A DNA stretch of 64,000 nucleotides, from the NCBI RefSeq assembly GCF_008014645.1, contig NZ_VOWY01000007.1:62001-126000 (forward strand), in the 5' to 3' direction. This DNA is from Collinsella sp. BA40. GTDB lineage: Bacteria; Actinomycetota; Coriobacteriia; Coriobacteriales; Coriobacteriaceae. Below, one piece after another: positions 26,516 to 28,744 of this stretch. The position numbers and the translations under genes are program-made. Within the stretch, counting starts at the first letter, position 1, and every line of letters starts with the position of its first letter. The notes under the pieces were generated by a model. That model was not told where the DNA came from, made no database searches, and worked only from the letters and a program-made list of their open reading frames with translations.

Positions 26516-27136
26516 CTAGGCGAGGATCTTGATGAGCATGCCGATTCCGATGCCGATCGCTGCGCCCACGGCGGCGCCGAGGATGATCTTCAGGCTGTTG
26601 AGCACGCCCTTCTTCCATGGTTGCATCTCGCGCGCGTGCTGTCCGGCGAGCGTGCTGCGGTCCACGTGCTCCCCGCGGCTGAACGCCAGCACCTCGCGGT
26701 AGGTGACCAGGTCGTGCTGCTTCTTCAGGTGCTCGAGATTGGCGAACGCGATCAGCATGACGAACAGCGCCGCGAGCGCGAACACCACCGTGGGGATCGC
26801 GTGCCCGCCCCATCCCCATTCGTACTGAAGCGCGCCCCAGATCCCGAGCAGGAGAAACGCGACCGCACTCACCACCGCTACCGTCGAGAGGTTGTTGTAC
26901 TTCTTGACCGCCTCGTTCATTACCTGTGCCATGGTTTCCACATCTCCTTTGATGAGGGAGTCCACGGTCACCCCGAACACGTTGGAAAGCAGCAGCAGGC
27001 TCTGGACGTCCGGATACGTGCGGCCGCACTCCCAGTTGCTGATGGTCTGGCGCGACACGTAGATGCGCTCCGCCAAATCGTCCTGGGAGAGCCCGAGCTC
27101 CGTGCGGTGCTCCTTGATGTGCGAGCCCAGCTCCAT
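26516..27136 (-). CDS. XRE-family regulator with membrane C-terminus, paralogue of 24969-25589
   Basis: A 206-residue protein with HTH (residues 1-65, HIKEHRTELGLSQDDLAERI, ISNWECGRTYPDVQSLLLLS, TVDSLIKGDV), a helical linker (MAQVMNEAVKKYNNLS), two helices (about 85-140), LEHLKKQHDLVTYREVLAF and a final glycine-zipper-like helix (ILGAAVGAAIGIGIGMLIKI). AAGGGAGC upstream of ATG 27136. It is divergent from the efflux gene at 27494, whose control region it could bind. Confidence 0.85.
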   Translation of the reverse strand: MELGSHIKEHRTELGLSQDDLAERIYVSRQTISNWECGRTYPDVQSLLLLSNVFGVTVDSLIKGDVETMAQVMNEAVKKYNNLSTVAVVSAVAFLLLGIWGALQYEWGWGGHAIPTVVFALAALFVMLIAFANLEHLKKQHDLVTYREVLAFSRGEHVDRSTLAGQHAREMQPWKKGVLNSLKIILGAAVGAAIGIGIGMLIKILA

Positions 27137-27318
27137 GCGCGTGCTCCCTTGGGGTTCGGGGTGACCCCTGTCGAGAGTCACCATGGCATTGACGGGCAAA
27201 TCGTACCATCAAAGGTCTTTATGACCTGCCGCTGAGGGGTCGAGCCGGGTTGTCAAAAGGCTTTATAGTTGTGATGTACCTGGGGAAACGATATCTACGG
27301 AGCGTAGGGAGCATCGCG

Positions 27319-27346
27319 TTGCGCGGCGGGGCATGTTGCGTATAAT
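27319..27346 (+). promoter_or_regulatory. Promoter of the Mef-like efflux operon
   Basis: TTGCGC (27319-27324) and a perfect TATAAT (27341-27346) are 16 bases apart. The transcript would start near 27353, giving a leader of about 140 nt before the pump gene. Confidence 0.65.
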
Positions 27347-27400
27347 ATCCTGCACTCACGACCCGCTGCATAATCGACTATGGGAAAGGGGGGCTGCACC

Positions 27401-27430
27401 ATGCTTGCTTCCATGAGGATTTGGCTCTAG
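27401..27430 (+). CDS. Leader peptide MLASMRIWL upstream of the efflux gene
   Basis: Nine codons with a strong ribosome site (AAGGGGGG, 7 bases upstream of the ATG), ending in TAG 63 bases before the pump gene. The ASMR core recalls the leader peptides of macrolide-inducible genes (MTASMRLR of mef and msr), where drug-bound ribosomes stall around the Arg. The similarity is short but sits in exactly the expected place. Function is inferred. Confidence 0.6.
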   Translation: MLASMRIWL

Positions 27431-27434
27431 CCAC

Positions 27435-27461
27435 GGTCGCGTGAGCGACCGGTACTTCGCT
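27435..27461 (+). promoter_or_regulatory. Mutually exclusive hairpins in the efflux leader
   Basis: GGTCGC/GCGACC (27435-27440 and 27445-27450) with a GTGA loop overlaps an alternative stem AGCGA/TCGCT (27444-27448 and 27457-27461). Only one can form at a time. This is the architecture of an attenuator, though no T-run marks a terminator, so translational control or loss of RNA stability is as likely. Confidence 0.45.
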
Positions 27462-27493
27462 GCATATCACCGATCGCATCAAAGGATTATTCC

Positions 27494-28744
27494 ATGACAC
27501 AATCGAATCCTCGCGCTTCTTGGAGGCGCTCGCTCGCCATCGTCTGGATCGGCGAGTTCTTCTCCGTGCTCACGAGCTCCATCTTGCAGATGGGCCTCAT
27601 CTGGCACGTCACCCTCACCACCGGCTCCGCGAGCGCCCTGTCGTTCGTGAGCCTCGCGGCCTTCTTGCCCATGGCGCTCCTCGGCGCCTTCGCGGGCACC
27701 ATCGTGGACCGCACGTCCATCAGGCGTCTCATGATCGGCGCCGACCTCTTCATCGCGGCCGTGAGCCTCACGCTCGTCTTCGGCTCGCTTCAAGGCGACC
27801 TTTCCGTCGCCGCCGTGGCGGCGGTGCTGTTCGTCCGTGCGCTGGGCAGTACGCTCCATACGCCCGCCTTCAACGCGCTCACGCCGCTCGTCGCCCCGCC
27901 CGAGGCGCTCGGCAAGCTGGCGGGCATGCTGCAGTTCATGCAGTCGGGCAGCTACATCATCGGCAACGCCATCGCCGCGGTGATCTACCCGGCGTTCGGC
28001 CTGACCTTCATGATCGCTCTCGACGTCGCCGGCGCGGTGCTCGCGAGCATCGCGGTTGCGGTCTCTGGCATCAAGACGCCGGCGCCCGAGCGTCGCACGC
28101 CCGAGGAGAACGCCGAGGCGTCGCGCCATGCGGTGCGGGCCTTCCTATCGGAGACGGCAGGCGGCTATCACGAGCTCAAGCGCCATCGCGGCCTGTTCGC
28201 CATGCTCTGGATCGGCTTCGCGTTCTCGGTGCTGTTCTCGCCCATATCCGCGCTGTTCCCGCTCATGGTGTTCGACCATTTCGGGGGCACTGCAACGCAG
28301 TCGGCCATCGCGGAGATCGCGTTCTCGGTCGGCATGATCGCGGCGAGCGGCTGGATCGGGGCGACGGGCGGCCTCAAGAACCGCGCACTCTCGTTCACGC
28401 TGGCCATCGCCCTTTTCGGCGCGGTTACGCTCGCGGGCGGCCTCGTGCCCCCTTCGGCGCTCGTCGTTTTCTTGGGCCTCACGTTCGCGATGGGCGTGTC
28501 GAGTCCGCTCTACAGTGCGCCGCAGATGGCGCTCATGCAGGAACGCGTCGATCCCGAGTGCATGGGCCGCGTCTTCGGCCTGTACGGGGCGGTCTGCAGC
28601 TGGGCCATGCCCGTGGGCCTTATCGCATCGACCCTGTTTGCGGACGCCATCGGCGCGAGCGTGTGCTTCGTGCTCATCGGTGCGGCGATGATGATTCTCG
28701 CGGGAATCACCTGGGCGATCCCGAGCATCAGGAAGATCGGGTAG
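27494..28744 (+). CDS. MFS efflux transporter, Mef-like
   Basis: A 416-residue, 12-helix major facilitator. The N-terminus (VWIGEFFSVLTSSILQMGLI, ASALSFVSLAAFLPMALLGA, GTIVDRTSIRRLMIGADLFI) follows Mef(A) macrolide pumps motif by motif: the TSSILQM segment, the SLAAFLP helix and the D-R-x-x-x-x-x-x-M-I-G-A-D loop. It should export a drug by proton exchange; a macrolide is the best guess given the leader peptide. AAAGGA precedes the ATG. GC-rich like its neighbours, so an indigenous or long-resident member. Confidence 0.82.
   Translation: MTQSNPRASWRRSLAIVWIGEFFSVLTSSILQMGLIWHVTLTTGSASALSFVSLAAFLPMALLGAFAGTIVDRTSIRRLMIGADLFIAAVSLTLVFGSLQGDLSVAAVAAVLFVRALGSTLHTPAFNALTPLVAPPEALGKLAGMLQFMQSGSYIIGNAIAAVIYPAFGLTFMIALDVAGAVLASIAVAVSGIKTPAPERRTPEENAEASRHAVRAFLSETAGGYHELKRHRGLFAMLWIGFAFSVLFSPISALFPLMVFDHFGGTATQSAIAEIAFSVGMIAASGWIGATGGLKNRALSFTLAIALFGAVTLAGGLVPPSALVVFLGLTFAMGVSSPLYSAPQMALMQERVDPECMGRVFGLYGAVCSWAMPVGLIASTLFADAIGASVCFVLIGAAMMILAGITWAIPSIRKIG

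Follow-up and report, generated by a model that had tools for sequence, protein, structure and literature searches.

A nine-codon open reading frame (ORF), MLASMRIWL, lying ahead of a Mef(A)-like efflux pump gene in Collinsella sp. BA40 is best explained as a macrolide-sensing leader of the ErmDL/MefAL type that carries Arg6-x-Trp8 and controls this chromosomal pump, a reading to which we give a probability of about 0.74. It was preferred because the leader is kept in six species, the pump's clade is sister to that of Mef(A), and Arg-x-Trp has been published as an erythromycin arrest motif. The analysis covered a 64,000-nucleotide stretch of contig NZ_VOWY01000007.1 (the window), to which all unlabelled coordinates refer; features lie on the + strand unless stated otherwise.

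The leader ORF (27401–27430) reads ATG CTT GCT TCC ATG AGG ATT TGG CTC and ends in TAG. A strong ribosome binding site (AAAGGGGGG, 27385–27393) precedes it, with the ATG 7 nt downstream. The −10 box, read directly as TATAAT, is at 27341–27346, and transcription probably starts around 27354, at the candidate start sequence ACTCACG. A consensus promoter scan of the window did not call this promoter, since the −35 element (TTGCGC, 27319–27324) is weak and matches the consensus at only three of six positions. In four other species the same place as the −10 box is occupied by TATAAT, TACAAT or TAGAAT, and the ACTCACG just 3′ of the box is kept in all six leader-bearing species. An Rfam search of the leader gave no match. 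The original prediction, made on the letters of the sequence, had pointed to a perfect TATAAT, a nine-codon ORF with a strong ribosome site and a pump gene 63 bp past the leader; all three were found as described, the pump starting at position 27494.

The pump gene (27494–28744) specifies, by homology, a Mef(A)-like MFS protein of 416 amino acids, so that an SD-led short ORF stands directly ahead of a putative macrolide resistance gene. The protein scored 316 bits (E 3.3e-94) against the NCBIfam Mef(A) model, which is below the curated cut-off of 675, and was 40–42% identical to plasmid Mef(A). That the pump is Mef-like, as had been proposed, was confirmed in the sense that the Coriobacterial pumps branch as the sister group to Mef(A) with support of 100/99, while Mef(B), Mef(F) and other MFS pumps fall elsewhere in the tree. 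In a sample of 396 genomes from across the phylum, family members at ≥50% identity were confined to Coriobacteriales. The 23S rRNA of the window's genome keeps GGAAAGACC, i.e. A2058, so macrolides should bind. No match to an Msr-type ABC-F protein was obtained in this genome at E 1e-20, and no msr gene adjoins the pump. A divergent XRE-type gene (26516–27151, minus strand) was considered as a regulator of the pump and set aside, because in relatives different genes lie upstream of the leader-pump block. A second copy of the window-type pump, incomplete and adjoining an assembly gap, was noticed in C. provencensis (L138 3582–4456).

A pattern search recovered the exact leader in 6 of 43 Collinsella genomes, every time with the orthologous pump 63–65 nt downstream. 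Across these six species the leader codons showed a single change, the synonymous CTT to CTC in C. intestinalis, and every one of them keeps GGAAAGGGG as the ribosome site. The window and C. tanakaei have 57 consecutive nucleotides in common, from CACCATG to GACCGGT, covering the leader and the first hairpin, and a second conserved piece, ACCGATCGCATCAAA, lies ahead of the pump; the pumps themselves agree at 73% of residues, 72.5% of nucleotides and 51.6% of fourfold sites. By these comparisons the peptide appears to be under purifying selection. DNA homology with C. provencensis, C. tanakaei and C. intestinalis starts at 27381–27383, at the leader ribosome site, and the upstream neighbours in these three species differ, indicating that leader and pump have been kept as one unit. 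Such a pattern is what would be expected of a functional leader and pump. Recombination of the leader alone is possible; it would have to spare both flanks. When the pattern ATGYTNGCNWSNATGMGNATHTGG was sought in 84,980 species genomes, 32 stretches matched; SD-led nine-codon ORFs were limited to the five from Collinsella, and the remaining 27 matches look fortuitous.

Conservation of the leader among orthologues, which had been proposed as a check, held for the nearest orthologues but not further out, the leader being absent from pumps of ∼60% identity in Collinsella and related genera. Going by the sequences, MLASMRIWL is a trait of one pump subclade and not of all orthologues. No convincing candidate emerged when leaders were sought before more distant pumps (31–35% identity). 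A variant with Val at position 6 (genome G215) was not used; it lies at a contig end, in a genome with no pump match. In genome G033 a sister pump (80% identity) has another candidate leader, the GTG-started MPIPMLAF (loci L006 and L159), which contains Ile-Pro-(Met), an XP(X) context.

The peptide resembles two known leaders. The ASMR core that had been noticed at the outset is indeed shared with MefAL/Mef(E)L, MTASMRLR, of mef(A/E)-msr(D) (Chancey 2015, PMC4335068), with Ala3, Ser4, Met5 and Arg6 matching position by position; in both cases a short SD-led leader stands ahead of a Mef pump, with hairpins in between. The window's leader differs in having Ile7-Trp8-Leu9 in place of Leu7-Arg8, and its setting differs in the 63-nt intergenic region, the lack of a U-run terminator and of an adjoining msr gene, and the location in a chromosomal Collinsella subclade. 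With ErmDL (MTHSMRLRFPTLNQ; PMC8298421) it shares Ser4-Met5-Arg6 and a stall predicted to occur while residue 7 occupies the P site; it differs in placing Trp8 in the A site, and the target of ErmDL is a methyltransferase rather than a pump. ErmDL and MefAL both have Arg6-x-Arg8 where the window's leader has Arg6-x-Trp8. According to PMC8298421, telithromycin arrests ErmDL only if both position 6 and position 8 are Arg or Lys, and R8W abolishes this arrest, while erythromycin arrest depends mainly on the N-terminal part, Ser4/Met5, with position 8 accepting almost any residue and Ser4 being critical, replaceable only by Ala or Gly. In a published table of macrolide leaders of Mef, Msr and ErmD-type genes, nearly all entries have the form Arg/Lys-x-Arg/Lys (PMC4335068). 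The motif +X(W) is listed, however, among the erythromycin-dependent arrest motifs obtained by inverse toeprinting with E. coli ribosomes (Seip 2018, PMC6238534), and Arg-Ile-(Trp) fits it; those motifs came from a synthetic random library, whereas the one described here would belong to a natural regulatory leader. A literature search, with most subscription journals outside its coverage, did not turn up any account of a naturally occurring Arg-x-Trp macrolide leader. MsrDL (PMC10314930) is similar in being a macrolide-stalled leader that governs a resistance gene through transcription attenuation, and differs in its unrelated peptide, its stall chemistry and its ABC-F target. Applied to known genes, the same reading of leaders recovered MTASMRLR ahead of Mef(A) and MTHSMRLRSLSLNK ahead of Mef(F), the latter being an SD-led ORF 408 nt before mef(F) of Macrococcoides canis (L161) that resembles ErmDL. 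On an E. coli plasmid (L160), an ORF reading MYLIFM, the peptide of MsrDL, was seen 189 nt upstream of mef(B).

A second leader with the same arrangement, MVGLFRTWMSA, precedes Mef-like pumps of ∼51% identity in three Coriobacteriales families, behind the ribosome site AAGGAGG. Its pattern occurred in 19 of 392 Coriobacteriales genomes, 18 of them without mismatch, and a hairpin with a U-run located 3′ of it scanned as an intrinsic terminator. In one of these genomes (G095, L135 4284–9754) the product of the gene after the pump belongs to the Msr family of ABC-F proteins (672 bits against a cut-off of 680), and beyond this gene a Tet(M/W/O/S)-type gene lies on the other strand. In a diverged copy (genome G121), 35 of 36 leader bases were kept, as against 94 of 120 upstream bases. 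Plasmid records contained no near match to the mef-msr region; the leader-pump unit was also seen once in a contig of a viral collection (L152). MLASMRIWL and MVGLFRTWMSA are unrelated in sequence, yet both have Arg6 and Trp8, and Arg-Thr-(Trp) fits +X(W) as well. In the tree, leaderless pumps separate the subclade with MVGLFRTWMSA from that of the window, which suggests separate origins for the two leaders. A set of 89 distinct SD-led ORFs of 8–15 codons, with both leaders included, was drawn from 323 kb comprising only the window and related loci; within it, these two alone had +6 and W8, a combination predicted at 0.24% from composition; the comparison was made after both leaders had been seen and is descriptive, not a prior test. 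The second leader lacks Ser4-Met5, and any arrest on it would depend on +X(W) alone. The existence of a second Coriobacterial mef/msr operon with an Arg6-x-Trp8 leader strengthens the macrolide reading of the first. The chances are about even that Coriobacteriales recruited Arg-x-Trp at least twice, in unrelated leaders with Arg at 6 and Trp at 8, as sensors that respond to cladinose macrolides but not to ketolides.

The drug that is sensed could be a different one. MLASMRIWL might stall the ribosome in response to another compound acting on the tunnel or the peptidyl-transferase centre (a lincosamide, streptogramin or phenicol), or to several classes, with the pump as a general exporter. Mef-like pumps do vary, that of the window falls far under the curated Mef(A) cut-off, and PMC12121999 describes a uORF that responds to several classes of antibiotic. 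However, Ser4-Met5-Arg6 and Trp8 coincide with the positions studied specifically for erythromycin, and the second Arg-x-Trp leader heads an operon containing an Msr-type gene; this explanation is considered unlikely.

Two overlapping stems had been claimed for the region between leader and pump, and both exist, with segment B in common. Hairpin A:B (27434–27451), directly 3′ of the leader stop, pairs CGGTCGC (27434–27440) with GCGACCG (27445–27451) across gtga, while the alternative stem B:C (27445–27477) pairs GCGACCGGT (27445–27453) with ACCGATCGC (27469–27477) at 8 of 9 positions. The ribosome binding site of the pump, AAAGGA, was read directly at 27481–27486. Folding models gave A:B a probability of 0.91–1.00 in the free RNA of all six sequences, and the probability of B:C rose to 0.66–0.97 once a model ribosome covered segment A. 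By the sharing of segment B and by this shift, the two structures are predicted to be mutually exclusive. With the model ribosome set at Ile7/Trp8, B:C reached only 0.07–0.59, a partial shift; the switch is weak in the model because a ribosome there barely touches segment A, reaching only its first one or two bases. A segment as complementary to B as C is, counted in Watson-Crick pairs, appeared in 0.2% of dinucleotide shuffles of the window's spacer and in 0.06% of those of the C. tanakaei spacer. Segment C is identical in C. tanakaei, whereas the spacer between B and C has diverged (9 of 15 positions identical). The whole-leader RNA is not unusually stable (z = 0.12), so the case for structure is built on conservation and mutual exclusion rather than on folding energy; the six sequences, which are closely related, show no compensatory base changes in the stems. 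A 5′-end pairing seen by eye, CUCACG:CGUGAG, was discarded, its probability in the folding models being 0.00.

Whether these stems form an attenuator, as had been suggested, received a mixed answer: conserved, mutually exclusive stems are present, but the scan found no intrinsic terminator with a U-run between leader and pump in the window, of the kind known from mef(E)/mel, and modelling did not support sequestration of the ribosome site of the pump, the predicted accessibility of this site changing little between the two states. In genome G033 a similar hairpin at the position of A:B has a U-run, and the scan called it an intrinsic terminator. From the stems and the terminator-bearing relatives, we infer by analogy that the window's alternative stems would act as an attenuator; transcription attenuation may be the more ancient arrangement.

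According to the macrolide-leader reading, a ribosome carrying a cladinose macrolide, e.g. erythromycin, would synthesise MLASMRI and stall with Ile7 in the P site, as Trp8 in the A site could not be joined. The stalled ribosome, lying against segment A, would disfavour A:B and let B pair with C, and in the B:C state the pump message would be completed or stabilised. Without the drug, the ribosome would complete the nine codons, A:B would form and expression would be held down. We infer that the leader stalls the ribosome and that the stall raises expression of the pump. Since Ser4, Met5 and Arg6 are kept and Trp8 is present, the leader is predicted, by analogy with ErmDL, to answer erythromycin and to respond poorly or not at all to telithromycin, with cladinose macrolides being more effective than ketolides.

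The absence of a terminator and the nearly unchanged accessibility of the pump ribosome site would also suit a translated short ORF that merely aids message stability or translational coupling, with no drug sensing, as would the shortness of the untranslated gap (63 nt). This was judged improbable: the peptide is invariant while synonymous sites of the pump are near saturation, and coupling requires no particular peptide, whereas the peptide matches known arrest positions specifically. Still less probable is a functionless chance ORF, for although the frame is short and short ORFs are common, six-species conservation with one synonymous change and a 57-nt identical block would not be expected of one. 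An amino-acid attenuator sensing Trp, for which the conserved Trp8 and the downstream hairpins might speak, was rejected as scarcely credible, there being a single Trp codon, a pump as the target, and an Arg6 shared by two unrelated leaders that both precede Mef-like pumps.

The macrolide-leader reading has consequences beyond the window. Searches tuned to +X+ leaders would overlook Arg-x-Trp leaders, and the one that bears a terminator is linked to a Mef/Msr operon over three families, in one genome near a tetracycline-resistance gene. If the leaders work, they would yield a clean prediction of drug selectivity, on with erythromycin and off with telithromycin, and an arrest motif that has so far come from random libraries would be in natural use in common human gut bacteria.
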